NCBI RefSeq assembly: GCF_002220095.1
Contig: NZ_CP022372.1
Coordinates: forward strand, 5,024,501-5,088,500
From: Bosea sp. AS-1
GTDB taxonomy: Bacteria > Pseudomonadota > Alphaproteobacteria > Rhizobiales > Beijerinckiaceae
Length of the DNA: 64,000 nt
Direction of reading: 5' to 3'
Shown here: piece by piece, positions 7,115 to 60,604 of the stretch
How positions within the stretch are numbered: position 1 is the first letter of the stretch
Layout: the number at the start of each line of letters is the position of its first letter
Notes under the pieces: model-generated
The model's input: the letters and a program-made list of their open reading frames with translations, nothing else
The model's database searches: none
Told to the model about the DNA's origin: nothing
Made by a program: the position numbers and the translations under genes

Positions 7115-7892
7115 CACGCCCCTCCTTATCGGTGGCGAGACAGGCGCGGATGCGGGCCTCGTAGTCGGCTTGGGCTGCGGCTTTGGCTTGGTCGAGCGTG
7201 TCGAACCGCGCGGCTAAGTGCGTACAATCGTGCGCGACGTGGTAACCATCGAACTGGGTGCTGATCTCGTAAAACGTGCCCAGCGCCGTTTCCGCGTCCC
7301 AGCGATCGACTTCGCCTTCAGTCTCATATTCGTCCCACTCCAGCGCCTTCACCCCCTGCGCGCTCTCCACCGCAGCGGGAGCGGGATGCGCGTAGAGGGG
7401 AGTCTGCCTTACCCAGTCGACGGGGTCCCAGCGCTGTTTATTGGCCAAGACGTTGGCTGCATCGATGGCGTCCCTTGTCATGTATGATCCGCCGCCCGGA
7501 TATTTGACCGGGTAATCCGGCGCCTTGAACTGCCACTCGGTCAGCCAAGCCACCGGCTCAGCGGCAGAGCTGGACGGAGACAGGGCGGCGGGTCTGCCGT
7601 TCGGGAACAGCTTGAGCCCGGCATTCGCCATGTTGGTGACGGGCTGGTCCGTCGACATGTTGGCGATCCAGTCGAGGATGTCCCAGAGCTTCGCCTCTCG
7701 CACATCCCCGCCCGCAGGCGAGGAGGGCTTGGCGATCAGCGGCAGCAACGTCGCGACGGCGATGCTCGCCTCGGGCAGGTAGTCACGCCAAAATGTCTCG
7801 ACATACTGCGCGGCGACCGCATCAGTATCGCCCATTCGCTGCTTCGACAGACAGATGGCTCGCGCGACCTTCTCTTCCAGAGCATCAGTCAT
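7107..7892 (-). CDS. Phage hypothetical protein
   Basis: A 261-residue acidic protein. Two features recur in phage accessory proteins: PVAWLTEWQFKAP in the middle and TPLYAHPAPA, a string common where a protein is built from short copied modules. The C-terminal third (FYEISTQFDGYHVAHDCTH, then FDTLDQAKAAAQADYEARI) looks like a separate small domain. No catalytic motif is seen. ATG 7892 is chosen over an upstream TTG. It overlaps the next gene by 8 bases. Confidence 0.55.
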   Translation of the reverse strand: MTDALEEKVARAICLSKQRMGDTDAVAAQYVETFWRDYLPEASIAVATLLPLIAKPSSPAGGDVREAKLWDILDWIANMSTDQPVTNMANAGLKLFPNGRPAALSPSSSAAEPVAWLTEWQFKAPDYPVKYPGGGSYMTRDAIDAANVLANKQRWDPVDWVRQTPLYAHPAPAAVESAQGVKALEWDEYETEGEVDRWDAETALGTFYEISTQFDGYHVAHDCTHLAARFDTLDQAKAAAQADYEARIRACLATDKEGRDV

Positions 7893-8241
7893 CGCCAAGC
7901 ACCTCGTCGATCAGCGGCAGCAGATTGCGAGCGTCCGAGCGCAGCGGCTCATGGTGGATCGGCCAGCGATTGAAGATCGCGCCCTCGTTCTCCTTCGCCA
8001 TGTTGAACAGAACCGTGTGGCACCGTCCGAGGACGGTCAGAGCTTTATCGAGCAACTTCTGCGTCGCATCCGCCTCGCCCCCAGCCTCCGACCCGCTCGT
8101 CGCGGCCGGGGGGATGGAGGCGATGGAGAGCAAGGCGTCTTCCAAGTTCTCGACGCTATGCTGCCGAGTGACTGGGCAATCACCTTCAGAGTGCCGGGCC
8201 TTCACGTCCGCAACGATGGCCTGAGCGATTTCCAAAAGCAT
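7885..8241 (-). CDS. Phage hypothetical protein
   Basis: A 118-residue protein from ATG 8241, MLLEIAQAIVADVKARHSEG and onward, mostly helical, with a central low-complexity linker (PPAATSGSEAGGEADATQ) and a C-terminal LLPLIDEVLGDD. No recognised family. It sits between the two overlapped accessory genes and shares their strand. Confidence 0.5.
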   Translation of the reverse strand: MLLEIAQAIVADVKARHSEGDCPVTRQHSVENLEDALLSIASIPPAATSGSEAGGEADATQKLLDKALTVLGRCHTVLFNMAKENEGAIFNRWPIHHEPLRSDARNLLPLIDEVLGDD

Positions 8242-8243
8242 GG

Positions 8244-8885
8244 TCAGGCCCTCCTTCGGTTGCGGATTGTGGTAGCGTCCGGCACGTTCTGGCAGGAGCA
8301 GTAGTCGTCCGAGCCTCGGCACGAACAGCGCGCGGCTTGCTCCTTTTGCTCTGCATCCGTCAGGCAAGCGGCAGTCTCCTTTGCCACTTCTGGATGTTCA
8401 GGCAGCGGCATCCATTTCAGCGGGACGATGTCGGAATGGAAGACGTTGCCGCTGGCCCACTTCCATACGCCATCGAGGACCATGGCCTCGCCAACCCAAC
8501 CGCCAGTGGTCGCGACCAGAAGCCATTCGTCCTCTGGCGCGCTGTCGATCGTCTGCCAACCTGCATCCACCCCGCTCGCAGGGGCTGGGGCGGAGGCGAG
8601 ATCGGCTCGGATGTATTCAGTCGGCTCGTCTTGATCGTCGCCTTCTGGCCAGACCTTATCTTCGCACCAAGTGCGCTCATCGCCTGCGAAAGGCTGGCTC
8701 CGGTCAATGGGTTCAAGCCAGATGCGTGGCGGGTCTTCGCGCACCGCCTCATCGCGCGTGGGGGTGGCCTCGGGGGTGGGGCCCCCGAGGAACCAGCCAG
8801 GCTCGCGCTTGGGGGTGTTGAGATCGGGCATCGTCTTGGCGCTGACCGCATGGATCTCGCCATCGAACGGAGGCTTAGTCTTCAT
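8244..8885 (-). CDS. DUF551-domain phage protein (copy 1)
   Basis: A 213-residue protein. Residues about 120-175 form a DUF551 domain: WQTIDSAPEDEWLLVATTGG, then WKWASGNVFHSDIVPLKWMP and LPEHPE. The flanks are disordered-looking, and the C-terminus is cysteine rich (CSCRGSDDYCSCQ). DUF551 proteins are abundant in phages and have no assigned biochemical role. A second copy of the domain, almost identical in DNA as well as protein, is in 10892-11353. Start ATG 8885 (MKTKPPFDGEIH) is chosen because the upstream extension overlaps the small gene at 8875-9006. Confidence 0.65.
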   Translation of the reverse strand: MKTKPPFDGEIHAVSAKTMPDLNTPKREPGWFLGGPTPEATPTRDEAVREDPPRIWLEPIDRSQPFAGDERTWCEDKVWPEGDDQDEPTEYIRADLASAPAPASGVDAGWQTIDSAPEDEWLLVATTGGWVGEAMVLDGVWKWASGNVFHSDIVPLKWMPLPEHPEVAKETAACLTDAEQKEQAARCSCRGSDDYCSCQNVPDATTIRNRRRA

Positions 8886-56630: not shown

Positions 56631-57050
56631 TCACCCCTTCGGAGCCGCGGTCGGCGGCAGCACATAGAAGACAAGCTCGCCGTCGTTGTTGTCGGATCCG
56701 CCCCTACCGCGAACCGGCAAGCCCTTCTCCAGATTGGCCTGCGCCTCGCCGGCGGCTTTACGGGCTTTCTCTGTGGCTGGAATAGTGTGCAGCCGTGTCC
56801 CGGTTGGTGTCCGCACCAACAAGAGCACGTTGTCTTGATCGACGCTGGCGTGGACCACATCGAACTCACCCGCCGGTGCTGTCTGCACAGCATAACCCAA
56901 CAGGCTCGAGCCGTAGGCGTAGAAGGCAAGCGGCAAGGCGACCAGCACCGGCACGGCAACAAAGAGCCACCTACGCCGCGACGTCTCCACCAACAACCAC
57001 GCCAGCGGCGCCAGAACGGCCAGCGTGGCGGCTACGGTTAGGGCTAGCAT
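56631..57050 (-). CDS. Phage membrane protein of unknown function
   Basis: A 139-residue protein with two transmembrane helices (about 2-21 and 29-48) and a C-terminal soluble domain (about 55-139; FDVVHASVDQDNVLLLVRTPTGTRLHTIPATEKA). ATG 57050 overlaps the end of the VUT-type gene. It lies directly behind the transporter and DpdA-like genes in the same operon, so it may be a partner, but nothing in the sequence says what it does. Confidence 0.5.
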   Translation of the reverse strand: MLALTVAATLAVLAPLAWLLVETSRRRWLFVAVPVLVALPLAFYAYGSSLLGYAVQTAPAGEFDVVHASVDQDNVLLLVRTPTGTRLHTIPATEKARKAAGEAQANLEKGLPVRGRGGSDNNDGELVFYVLPPTAAPKG

Positions 57051-57586
57051 GGGCGGGGCTCCTGATTGCGGCGTGCCACAAGCCAGGTGTGCAGAGCGAC
57101 GGCCGCAATTGCGCTTGCCCACATTTTCCCGACGAACTGCCCACCCATGTAATCTAGCGAGCCAAACGCGATCAGAAGAAAGACGGCGCTATCAACTAAG
57201 GCCCCGACGACGCCGCTAGCCATCACCGCGAGGGCTAGGCCCCGCTTGCGGAGAGGCTGATACACGCCATAGTCCGCCAACTCGGCCAACACGAACGCGG
57301 CGACGGACGCCAGCAAAAGAGTGGGTGGCGCAAACAGCGCCGAAAGGACAGCGCCGACGCCCAAGGCCGCGAACACCCCCGTCGCGCCGTGCCTCTCGTT
57401 GATCCAGTCCCGAAGAACAAGAGCAAGCCCGACGAGCAACACGCCGCTTGGCGCCATGAGGCCGAAGCCAACAGGGATCAGGCATGGCCCGCTAGGCACA
57501 CACACCGAACCGACGTTGCCAATGAGCCAGTTGGCAGCGGGTATCGTGGCGGCGAACAGCAGGAACGGAAGCATCCGACGCAACAT
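57044..57586 (-). CDS. VUT/YhhQ-family transporter (queuosine-precursor type)
   Basis: A 180-residue integral membrane protein with about six helices. Family marks: ATIPAANWLIGN near the start, APSGVLLVGLALVLRDWINERHG, LAELADYGVYQPLRKRG and ASGVVGALVDSAVFLLIAFGSL. The VUT family includes YhhQ, which imports preQ0/preQ1, precursors of 7-deazaguanine bases. A phage rarely needs such a transporter unless it salvages these bases; the adjacent DpdA-like gene supports that use. It starts in a TGATG overlap with the deoxyribosyltransferase-like gene. Confidence 0.75.
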   Translation of the reverse strand: MLRRMLPFLLFAATIPAANWLIGNVGSVCVPSGPCLIPVGFGLMAPSGVLLVGLALVLRDWINERHGATGVFAALGVGAVLSALFAPPTLLLASVAAFVLAELADYGVYQPLRKRGLALAVMASGVVGALVDSAVFLLIAFGSLDYMGGQFVGKMWASAIAAVALHTWLVARRNQEPRPC

Positions 57587-57990
57587 CACGCGGTCCTCTC
57601 GTTCAGAAACGAGACCGCAGCATCCAACGAAGAGAACACTGCCGAACTATGATACACGAGCCACGGGCTCAGCGGCTTACCGCTTTTGTCGACCACAATG
57701 GCGGGGATGCCATTGTCATATGCAAACAGCACCTCCATCGACGTGCCGACTGACGGCTTTTCATAGTAGACGAGCAACGAATCGCACTGCAGGATGTCTG
57801 ATTTGTCGTTCTCAACGATTTCAGATGCAATGCCAGGCTCAAGTTCGCGCCCACGATAGTCGCGCACCATAGGGTCGAAGCAAATTCCGTCCAGCTTTTT
57901 GGCGCAATAGTCCCGCCAGTCTTTTGCTTCTTCGTCTGTGCAGCCATTGATGGGGCCGCAAAGGTAGACTTTCTTACCCAGCGATTGCAT
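57586..57990 (-). CDS. Nucleoside 2-deoxyribosyltransferase-like protein
   Basis: A 134-residue protein: KKVYLCGPINGCTDEEAKDW at the N-terminus, CFDPMVRDYRG, then DILQCDSLLVYYEKPSVGTSMEVLFAYDNG (given as pieces DILQCDSLLVY and GTSMEVLFA, with candidate catalytic Glu86). These are the NDT fold's nucleotide-binding and catalytic segments. NDTs swap bases on deoxynucleosides or hydrolyse them. ATG 57990 has GGGAGA upstream; the gene overlaps the DpdA-like gene by 17 bases. A role with deazapurine nucleosides is speculation. Confidence 0.68.
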   Translation of the reverse strand: MQSLGKKVYLCGPINGCTDEEAKDWRDYCAKKLDGICFDPMVRDYRGRELEPGIASEIVENDKSDILQCDSLLVYYEKPSVGTSMEVLFAYDNGIPAIVVDKSGKPLSPWLVYHSSAVFSSLDAAVSFLNERTA

Positions 57991-58675
57991 TGAACAGGTC
58001 TCCCTCGTTGTCATTTGAGGCGCGCAGGCTCCATTTCACTGGGCACTGCACGGCATCTATTCGGCGCGCCATGCGCTCTGGACAGGATGAGGTGTCTTTG
58101 AAGTTTCGCGCGACGTTTACGCTGTCGGCACTGGCAAACGGCCATCGATCGCCGCACATCGCCAGTCCGCGCAGCATGTGAACCCAAGGACGCAAGCCAC
58201 GCCGCTCGAGATGATTGAACGCCTCGTCAGCGCGCCGTTCCCACGCCGGCGAGCCAACCTGCCAATAGGCTCCGGACGAGCCGAAGCAGATGCGCGGCCA
58301 AGCATCGGCAAGTTCAAGCAGGTAGTCGAACTCAAGCCCCATATGCCAAACAGGCGCGCCGAGGTGCTTGGGGAACGGCCACTGCTTGACCAGATCGCGC
58401 TGCTGCTCAGCCGTGCCGTCGATAACGTCCGGAACGACCGCCCAGTGGGGGTGTCCGAGCCGGCTTTCAAGCCACGAGAAGAAGCGCGCCCAATCCGGCT
58501 CCTTGCCACCGCGAAAGAACGTAAAGGCGCCATTGTCCCACATAACAGACTGGCCATGCTGCAAGCACCACTCAGCATCGCCCGGATTGGCGAACGACAC
58601 GCAGAAGTGCTTGCCGGCCATCTTCATAAGGTCGATGCGCGGCGTAAGCGGTGTGCCGTGGTAGTGAATTGTCAC
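57974..58675 (-). CDS. DpdA-like (TGT-fold) putative DNA base transglycosylase
   Basis: A 233-residue protein with TGT-like features: SVMWDNGAFTFF (Asp47) where tRNA-guanine transglycosylases have DSGGFQ, VVPDVIDG (Asp83), CFGSSGAYWQVGSP, VHMLRG and FASADSVNVARN (Asp184), comparable to the nucleophile region of TGT. DpdA enzymes exchange guanine in DNA for a 7-deazaguanine. Proteins with this HYHGTP...DNGAF...DSTNVARN layout are widespread in phages. Start is GTG 58675 in a GTGA overlap with the ExbD-like gene. Activity is inferred; no biosynthesis genes for the base are in view. Confidence 0.68.
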   Translation of the reverse strand: MTIHYHGTPLTPRIDLMKMAGKHFCVSFANPGDAEWCLQHGQSVMWDNGAFTFFRGGKEPDWARFFSWLESRLGHPHWAVVPDVIDGTAEQQRDLVKQWPFPKHLGAPVWHMGLEFDYLLELADAWPRICFGSSGAYWQVGSPAWERRADEAFNHLERRGLRPWVHMLRGLAMCGDRWPFASADSVNVARNFKDTSSCPERMARRIDAVQCPVKWSLRASNDNEGDLFNAIAG

Positions 58676-59223
58676 TTCCCCACCATCCTAGTTTGCTGTT
58701 CAAACACTTCCGCACTACCATCGGCCCGCACATTCATCGCCGCCAGCGTCCGCTCCTGGCCCTGCGTGTCGAAGGTGACGGCGGACTCTTTGATGACGGA
58801 ATAGGGGTTCAGCTTCAGCACGCGCATGCGGACGGTTACCGGGGACGCGAGCCGATAGGCGTGCACGTTGAACGTGTAGGTGCCGGGCGCTACCGCCCGC
58901 ACCGTCACGACCTCGCGTCGGTCGTTTATCGCCCCGTTGCCCGTGCCCGTATTGTCGGTGTCGAGGAACATGACTTCCGTCTTGCGACTGCCGAAGAACA
59001 CGATCTTTCCGTCCGGCCCCTTGGCGTACAGGTCGACGTCGCTGGCGCTCCCGTCGTCCCACGTCATCTCCACCAAGAACTCGGCCTTCGGCGTCAGGAC
59101 GCCGGCCGCTGGTTTGGGGTCGCCGAAGACGGAAATCAGCATCATGGCCAGCAGGACACAAACGACCGTCATCGCCATATCGAGAAAGGCCGGCGACAGA
59201 CCCTCACGCGCTCGCCTCATCAC
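58672..59223 (-). CDS. ExbD/TolR-like protein with unusual periplasmic domain
   Basis: A 183-residue protein. Residues 1-34 are a short basic head and one transmembrane helix, GLSPAFLDMAMTVVCVLLAM, that matches the ExbD/TolR helix including the proton-carrying Asp (Asp15, PAFLDM; compare TPFIDV). The remainder is periplasmic: a beta-rich domain with WDDGSASDVDLYAKGPDGK, LDTDNTGTGNG and APGTYTFNVHAY, reminiscent of DUF2135-type folds rather than the ExbD/TolR or OmpA domain. It overlaps the TolQ-like gene by 20 bases, so the two are almost certainly partners. Confidence 0.65.
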   Translation of the reverse strand: MMRRAREGLSPAFLDMAMTVVCVLLAMMLISVFGDPKPAAGVLTPKAEFLVEMTWDDGSASDVDLYAKGPDGKIVFFGSRKTEVMFLDTDNTGTGNGAINDRREVVTVRAVAPGTYTFNVHAYRLASPVTVRMRVLKLNPYSVIKESAVTFDTQGQERTLAAMNVRADGSAEVFEQQTRMVGK

Positions 59224-59893: not shown

Positions 59894-59985
59894 CACTTCG
59901 CCCCCACAACAGCAATGAGGGTGTCGAGCTTTTGGCAGACCGCGACACCGACCCAGATAAGCGTCAGCCAAATCACCGCCCGCAT
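59893..59985 (-). CDS. Predicted 30-residue membrane microprotein
   Basis: A short frame encoding MRAVIWLTLIWVGVAVCQKL and ten more residues ending VVGAK. Residues 3-18 form a transmembrane helix. It starts in a TGATG overlap with the DUF3310 gene and ends in a TGATG overlap with the next gene, so it fills an otherwise non-coding gap exactly. No ribosome site is needed if coupled; function unknown. Confidence 0.42.
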   Translation of the reverse strand: MRAVIWLTLIWVGVAVCQKLDTLIAVVGAK

Positions 59986-60407
59986 CACGCCGCCACCCCG
60001 TACTTCAGCTCCAGCAGCAACTGCGCCTCGTGGATGATCTTCTCCACGTCCTCCCTGCCTTTGCCCGTCGGCTTGTCGTGCCGGAAGGCGCGCTTGACGA
60101 TGTTGGATTCCAGCGACTCCATCTTGTTCTTGACGCAGAATTCGACGGGCTGAATCGCGGCGCCCTTGTAGTGATTGCCGCCGACCTGCTGAGAGAGGGC
60201 GCTGCCCGTTGATGCGCCCGGCGCATCAACTAGGCGGTAGGCGACGATGTCTCCGCCGCCGTAGTGGTGCTCCCAGTCCCACGTACCCGCCGCAGCTGTC
60301 CAAGTTTCAGCCGGGTCATCATGGTCGTCACGAAACCGCACCGACACCCGCCTGTAGTTGTCCTCCACCGGGCACTCGCCGCCGTTCCATTCAATCCAGT
60401 CGGTCAT
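59985..60407 (-). CDS. DUF3310-domain phage protein
   Basis: A 140-residue protein. The C-terminal half is a DUF3310 domain: QVGGNHYKGAAIQPVEFCVK, then RAFRHDKPTGKGREDVEKIIHEAQLL, common in tailed phages and of unknown function (sometimes called a nucleotide-kinase-like or MazG-like phage protein). The N-terminal half (DWIEWNGGECPV, DIVAYRLVD) is another frequent phage module. ATG 60407 lies in an ATGA overlap. Confidence 0.72.
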   Translation of the reverse strand: MTDWIEWNGGECPVEDNYRRVSVRFRDDHDDPAETWTAAAGTWDWEHHYGGGDIVAYRLVDAPGASTGSALSQQVGGNHYKGAAIQPVEFCVKNKMESLESNIVKRAFRHDKPTGKGREDVEKIIHEAQLLLELKYGVAA

Positions 60408-60604
60408 TCCACGCTCCTGAAAGTCATAAGGCGCCACGCGGCTCGGCGTTCGGGATGGCAGCGCCGCCATTCAAAGGCGACGTTGTTCCAGGCATCGACG
60501 ATGCCGCCGGCGAGGACGATGAAGGGGAAGGCTAGGACCGCAAGGACCACCAAACCCCACACTGCCAGCCCGCGCAGATAGCGGTTGCGGATGGAGAAGA
60601 TCAT
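60404..60604 (-). CDS. Small membrane protein
   Basis: A 66-residue protein, MIFSIRNRYLRGLAVWGLVV and onward, with one or two transmembrane helices in 10-36 and a basic C-terminus (FEWRRCHPERRAAWRLM). ATG 60604 overlaps the upstream gene by four bases. Function unknown. Confidence 0.5.
   Translation of the reverse strand: MIFSIRNRYLRGLAVWGLVVLAVLAFPFIVLAGGIVDAWNNVAFEWRRCHPERRAAWRLMTFRSVE

Follow-up and report, generated by a model that had tools for sequence, protein, structure and literature searches.

Known systems and the locus in Bosea

The best-described relatives of the system considered here are the phage DpdA enzymes of the phrog_887 type, studied in the phages 9g, CAjan, 7-11 and MED16. 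DpdA-only phages using a host or imported precursor, as well as phage-borne YhhQ transporters, are described in Hutinet 2019 (this and the other papers below are cited from portions of their text). Two further enzymes are relevant: DNPH1/Rcl, a 2'-deoxynucleoside 5'-phosphate N-hydrolase, and DmtZ of the Z-DNA phages (NAR 2026, PMC12884076), a phage enzyme resembling nucleoside 2'-deoxyribosyltransferase (NDT) that accompanies a modified-base system. The present analysis concerns three genes, called here D, N and V, of a prophage-like region in Bosea sp. AS-1; the window is the whole analysed stretch of 64,000 nt from contig NZ_CP022372.1. D belongs with the DpdA proteins, N with the NDT/DNPH1 fold and V with the VUT/YhhQ-type membrane proteins. 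Together they could form a prophage cassette for the 7-deazaguanine modification of DNA, with N as a base handler acting on 2'-deoxynucleoside 5'-monophosphates (dNMPs), although we rate this complete reading as slightly short of probable.

D shares its family and the D[NS]GAF, H and DS motifs with the DpdA proteins of 9g, CAjan, 7-11 and MED16 and differs from them in being joined to V and N. Phage 7-11 is like the Bosea prophage in that no preQ0 genes are seen in it. V is similar to the YhhQ/VUT transporters by Pfam PF02592, but it is shorter and stays below the TIGR00697 and PRK11212 thresholds. N is similar to DNPH1/Rcl in its fold, in the Tyr, Asp and Glu residues and in the phosphate serine pair, while differing in the missing LTEHV motif and in its position in a phage operon with DpdA. 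Like DmtZ, N is an NDT-like phage enzyme; DmtZ, however, goes with PurZ0/dutZ and the Z base and has a catalytic Asn where N has Asp (a likeness drawn from description, not from sequence). The D and V half of the cassette is thus already known in kind, as earlier papers describe both DpdA-only phages and YhhQ in phages. N is the unexpected element; its occurrence together with DpdA-like genes in many different phages points to an unstudied step in the disguise of phage DNA.

All three genes lie on the minus strand. D occupies 57974..58675 (233 aa), N 57586..57990 (134 aa) and V 57044..57589 (181 aa, GTG start). The open reading frame (ORF) of N from its first ATG covers 57586-58014 (142 aa), and the ATG at 57990 is the more likely start by sequence: GAGGGAG stands upstream of it, and the database's own call for N and its three nearest relatives among the matches listed (P0001 and P0002-P0004) are 134 aa each. 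With this start, D and N overlap by 17 nt and N and V by 4 nt, the GTG of V overlapping the stop codon of N. A sequence-only reading of this DNA had described three overlapping prophage ORFs with the motifs DNGAF, VPDV and DSVNVARN, and both the ORFs and the motifs are present. Chance ORFs are ruled out, as each of the three matches a protein family. The locus is 100% identical to the viral contig IMGVR_UViG_2758568013_000002 of IMG/VR, and the genes around it show matches to phage families of exonuclease, protease and Rz-like spanin; the region is prophage-like.

Linkage of N with DpdA genes

The linkage was examined in 86 N loci of IMG/VR, the Bosea locus included, of which 12 came from a first search and 74 were new from a second one (80 of 163 relatives kept). 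A TGT/DpdA-like ORF scoring at least 80 bits was found in 60 of the 86 loci (42/62 after clustering N at 80%), always on the same strand as N (60/60) and within 300 nt of it in 53/86 (37/62 at 80% clustering). By comparison, such an ORF occurred in one of 65 unclustered control loci (35 of dCMP deaminase and 30 of RusA, both control genes being taken from phages with a D-like gene); these two genes were used because a control gene of the Bosea prophage itself gave only 3 loci. The Fisher P value was 6e-20 by loci and 5e-17 by N clusters, both figures being rough because the loci are related. The TGT-like model started from a single Edwardsiella phage protein and was extended iteratively over the retrieved loci; drift of the model is possible.

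With six further N loci recognised by motif or by PHROG/Pfam, the count rises to 66/86. By BLAST linkage the partners in these 66 loci are of the types phrog_887 (44), phrog_15826 (16), phrog_1279 (5) and other (1). In a PHROG check of 54 TGT-like representatives, phrog_887 was matched by 38, phrog_15826 by 20, phrog_1279 by 5 and phrog_7068 by 4, with overlap between the families. D47 and H166 were invariant in the 54 representatives and D83 and D184 nearly so; the Pfam DpdA model was matched by five. A VUT gene was present in 13/86 N loci and queC, folE or queD in 11/86. Two well-supported pairs of sister N proteins have differing DpdA types beside them, L111/L133 (SH-aLRT 98) and L017/L166 (99), taken from a quick tree of 71 sequences with few columns and many open forks. 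The DpdA proteins of L133 and L166 match Pfam PF23859. The DpdA genes that accompany N come from at least two subfamilies.

In cultured phages N also stands close to preQ0-synthesis genes. In Aminobacter phage Erebus it lies between queD and folE with a 4-nt overlap on each side; in RHph_X3_2 it follows queE and one small gene and ends 30 nt before queC; in Edwardsiella phage ZHS it is found about 0.9 kb after a TGT-like gene, near queC and folE. No such annotated neighbours of N were seen in Moorella MTATph1, PhiCh1 and vir520, the last of which has an unassigned radical-SAM gene. HRTV-29 has an NDT and, according to PMC8651126, a DpdA without preQ0 genes.

Several observations weigh against a general role of N in DpdA systems. 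No TGT-like gene was recognised in 20/86 N loci, one of which (L014) has a 25-bit TGT-like fragment at the contig edge and a queD-like gene. When phrog_887 and PF23859 were run against 25 whole records (4 phages and the 21 IMG/VR N contigs lacking a profile match at their locus), each gave 0/25; this does not prove absence, as both also missed HRTV-29, which has a published DpdA, and the neighbours with the motif in L015 and L018. Among N loci on genome contigs of bacteria and archaea, only 1/13 had the partner. The looser phrog_15826 type ("unknown function") accounts for 16 of the 66 TGT-like neighbours, so that the strict count (phrog_887 and phrog_1279) is 49/86. The wider criterion also adds at least one control locus, L276, which shares its contig with the N locus L139 and overlaps the L139 DpdA, a protein missed by the 80-bit model in both sets. 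Among the 80 nearest D loci, N occurs in the Bosea locus only, the close relatives of D having V but no N. An N match was obtained in 3/13 phage records searched and in none of the six studied 7-deazaguanine phages (CAjan, 9g, 7-11, nt-1, Dp-1 and MED16); N is therefore not needed for insertion. N is accordingly accessory to DpdA systems, which do not require it, and within this limit the linkage makes it quite probable that N works with DpdA.

Open-licence literature on 7-deazaguanine, DpdA and preQ0 deoxyribosyltransferases, in the portions searched, does not propose N as a DpdA partner. The "deoxyribosyltransferase" of PMC8306585 is DpdA itself, that of PMC6884629 is a general remark, and PMC13329287 gives a related hint, QueC-like cluster 4 genes beside PfkB-NDT fusions. 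The earlier suggestion that the middle gene is a new part of the cassette is strengthened beyond its original wording by the N-DpdA linkage. Genomic linkage defines two partners of DpdA, V being known in kind and N having no such role proposed for it in the papers found, which bears on how DpdA phages without preQ0 genes obtain and handle the modified base.

Two further N loci can be mentioned. The 181-kb viral contig of L158 carries two N-like genes in tandem (7538-8432), adjoining an ORF that resembles dCMP deaminase by eye. In L018 (6757-7995), a 412-aa ORF with FVDSGAF and no Pfam or PHROG match ends just before the start of N; it may be an undescribed type of DpdA.

Fold and active site of N

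N matches Pfam PF05014 (NDT superfamily) with 32.4 bits against a cut-off of 28.8 (E 1e-7) and has the NDT/DNPH1 fold, which bears out the NDT-like assignment made from the sequence. A PDB sequence search with N alone gave nothing relevant. The residues D70, S88, E94, S116 and W118 are invariant in 206/206 N sequences, and Y17 is kept in all 204 that have a residue at this position. The set combines the 86 IMG/VR loci and 120 database proteins; it is unclustered and counts the Bosea protein twice. The protein searches listed 120 of 1994 and 120 of 4363 matches.

In the alignment with rat DNPH1, S88 corresponds to the phosphate serine, E94 to the nucleophile and S116 to the second serine (residue roles from PMC10603095 and PMC3834327). 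Classical NDTs are described, in the source portions cited, as lacking a phosphate pocket; the serine pair of N suggests that it has one. From these residues it is rather likely that N acts on dNMPs. Archaeal-virus NDTs have been read as enzymes of pyrimidine metabolism (PMC8651126). For N, its linkage to DpdA and the serines of the phosphate site led us to reject the role of an ordinary nucleoside transferase of this metabolism.

The DNPH1 motif LTEHV, which bears the water-activating Glu, was sought in N by alignment; neither the motif nor an EH pair was found, the alignment of this loop being ambiguous. N is not filed as DNPH1 for this reason. The absence of a conserved water-activating Glu suggests that N may favour another base over water as acceptor of the sugar. 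Two points speak against this argument. One alignment places DNPH1 E55 opposite P48 of N and another opposite I44, so the argument depends on the alignment. In DmtZ, moreover, a change of a comparable proline reportedly left transfer and hydrolysis unaltered by HPLC, the kinetics showing a tenfold loss of hydrolysis.

D as a DpdA-family protein

D matches phrog_887 ("queuine tRNA-ribosyltransferase") of PHROGs with E 7e-40. The same family is matched by the DpdA proteins of 9g, CAjan, 7-11, MED16 and Dp-1, but not by that of nt-1 (DpdA2). D47, D83, H111, H166 and D184 of D align with the same residues in these five proteins. The nearest of the studied DpdAs compared is that of MED16 (33% identity over 219 aa), a phage whose DNA is reported to contain dADG. 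D is very probably a DpdA-family enzyme, and the family membership together with the conserved Asp and His residues supports its initial description as DpdA-like.

The Pfam scan of D gave no match, PF01702 (TGT) included, the sole PF01702 match in the genome lying outside D. The Pfam DpdA model PF23859 did not match D either. This model seems to cover another DpdA subfamily, because it likewise fails to match the phrog_887 proteins found in L013, L118 and Erebus; a profile comparison of D with proteins matching PF23859 was weak (prob 7.6, E 0.0046). PDB sequence searches with D or its profile gave nothing relevant. A point against is the fold match of the D structure model, which was weak in Foldseek, with no E below 0.001. 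Among 397 genomes of the order, D was found in its own genome only.

In a VIA-align comparison of the D model, rank 1 was taken by Cap10 (9ntn, "NDG modification", in complex with CdnD), with Z within 1 of the best TGT. This model-based similarity hints that phage DpdA and the TGT-fold defence protein Cap10 may be kin.

V and the supply of the base

V matches PF02592 above the curated cut-off (E 9e-12) and phrog_4899 with E 8e-38. It scores 40 bits against TIGR00697 (queuosine precursor transporter; cut-off 50.95) and 25 bits against PRK11212 (threshold 252). Of the earlier YhhQ-like description, the VUT/YhhQ type thus stands by PF02592 and the stricter TIGR00697 assignment does not; V is classed from its sequence as VUT-type only.

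The link between D and V is close. Among the 80 nearest of 173 D relatives in IMG/VR, 77 loci contain a VUT gene (26/27 after clustering D at 80%), which is on the same strand in 77/77, within 300 nt in 75/80, 529 nt away at most, and upstream in 28. In two of the three loci without VUT, D sits at the contig end. A VUT gene is also near the D-like gene in five of six cultured phages inspected; Caulobacter phage DMCA has an annotated 6-carboxytetrahydropterin synthase in its place. Sinorhizobium phage phiLM21 (L004, 3947-4474) has a close V homologue without a D-like gene in the 8.5 kb retrieved.

The sequence-only reading took the system to be of the salvage type, as no folE, queD, queE or queC was in view. 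Regarding these genes, the QueC (PF06508) and PTPS (PF01242) matches of the genome do lie outside the prophage, and a phage-derived FolE model had no match in the 60 kb from the IMG/VR boundary; the part concerning QueE is less secure, none being seen in the prophage with one phage query that had no working control. A query with phage QueD failed to detect even the PTPS of the host. The host genome has TGT, QueC, QueF, a protein of the PTPS/QueD type and a VUT of its own, besides one more match to PF06508 that is weak (host FolE and QueE were outside the search), and may therefore supply the base. VUT genes also occur in the records of CAjan, Dp-1 and Erebus, all with preQ0 genes (two of the three VUTs being under the Pfam cut-off), so V alone does not imply salvage. 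Given these host genes, and since VUT or N is found in phages with preQ0-synthesis genes (N near such genes in three cultured phages), the argument for salvage from the missing queC was rejected, and a salvage-type system is not specifically supported. In the chromosome (C3:1655215-1656439), a VUT gene is directly beside queC.

Proposed reaction of N and alternatives

The mechanism considered here builds on computed results, namely the family to which D belongs, N's fold and active-site residues, and the linkage of N with DpdA and of D with V; from them we infer the substrates, the direction and the biological pay-off of N. D would take guanine out of phage DNA and put in a free 7-deazaguanine base, e.g., preQ0 or a derivative, and V would carry such a base across the membrane. 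N is proposed to be a deoxynucleoside-5'-monophosphate glycosidase or base exchanger on 7-deazaguanine, operating via a covalent deoxyribose-5-phosphate-Glu94 intermediate. Its most likely task would be to keep 7-deazaguanine as the free base for D and to return the displaced guanine to dGMP: d(7-deazaG)MP + guanine <-> dGMP + 7-deazaguanine. Exactly this reaction in this direction is doubtful. Equally speculative is the view that N is the first of a new class of phage enzymes, 2'-deoxyribose-5-phosphate base exchangers for 7-deazaguanine that would be the nucleotide-level counterpart of DpdA and would swap guanine and 7-deazaguanine on dNMPs; phages would then run guanine exchange in both the DNA and the nucleotide pool. 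Should N handle nucleotides of 7-deazaguanine, a nucleotide-pool arm would be added to the DpdA system, as in the Z-DNA phages. As N is a single short enzyme, the idea can be tested in vitro.

A DNPH1-like hydrolase might instead destroy stray 7-deazaguanine dNMPs to prevent their reuse, or free the base for reuse by water alone. The phosphate serines, Tyr, Asp and Glu of DNPH1, which is a sanitiser of the nucleotide pool (PMC10603095), are all present in N, but the LTEHV motif with its water-activating Glu is not, and E55 mutants of DNPH1 are reported to be about 150-fold slower in the second, hydrolytic step; DmtZ nevertheless still hydrolyses. Such pool cleaning appears rather unlikely. N might also work in the direction of synthesis, moving deoxyribose-5-phosphate from dGMP to preQ0, after which kinases would yield the triphosphate, part of the modification thereby preceding replication and DpdA filling in the rest. 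DmtZ performs an analogous reaction for the Z base, and Hutinet 2019, in the portions cited, leaves room for a modified dGTP route and for undetected 2'-deoxyribosyltransferases. We consider this unlikely: DpdA base-exchange chemistry acts on finished DNA, and in 66/86 loci N accompanies DpdA rather than replacing it.

More remote from the proposed exchange is the idea that N is an unrelated general nucleotide gene of phages sharing early operons with dpdA by chance. The 20 N loci without a recognised DpdA and the absence of N from the six studied phages would fit it, but the contrast of 60/86 with 1/65 controls, one control gene being itself that of a nucleotide enzyme (dCMP deaminase), and the switching of N between DpdA families make it improbable. 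It is similarly improbable that D has a TGT-like fold but does not carry out exchange in DNA, or that the cassette modifies tRNA or another target, since D shares its PHROG and key residues with studied DpdAs, and its relative MED16 is reported to carry dADG in DNA.

Neighbouring genes

The product of a minus-strand gene at 58672-59223 weakly resembles a PPC domain, scoring below the Pfam cut-off. The stop codon of this gene overlaps the start codon of D, and the cassette may therefore belong to a longer operon. In the minus-strand gene at 59985-60470, the C-terminal part of the product matches phrog_236 ("nucleotide kinase") and phrog_26149 ("deoxynucleoside monophosphate kinase") with E about 4e-6; this is possibly relevant to the dNMP idea.
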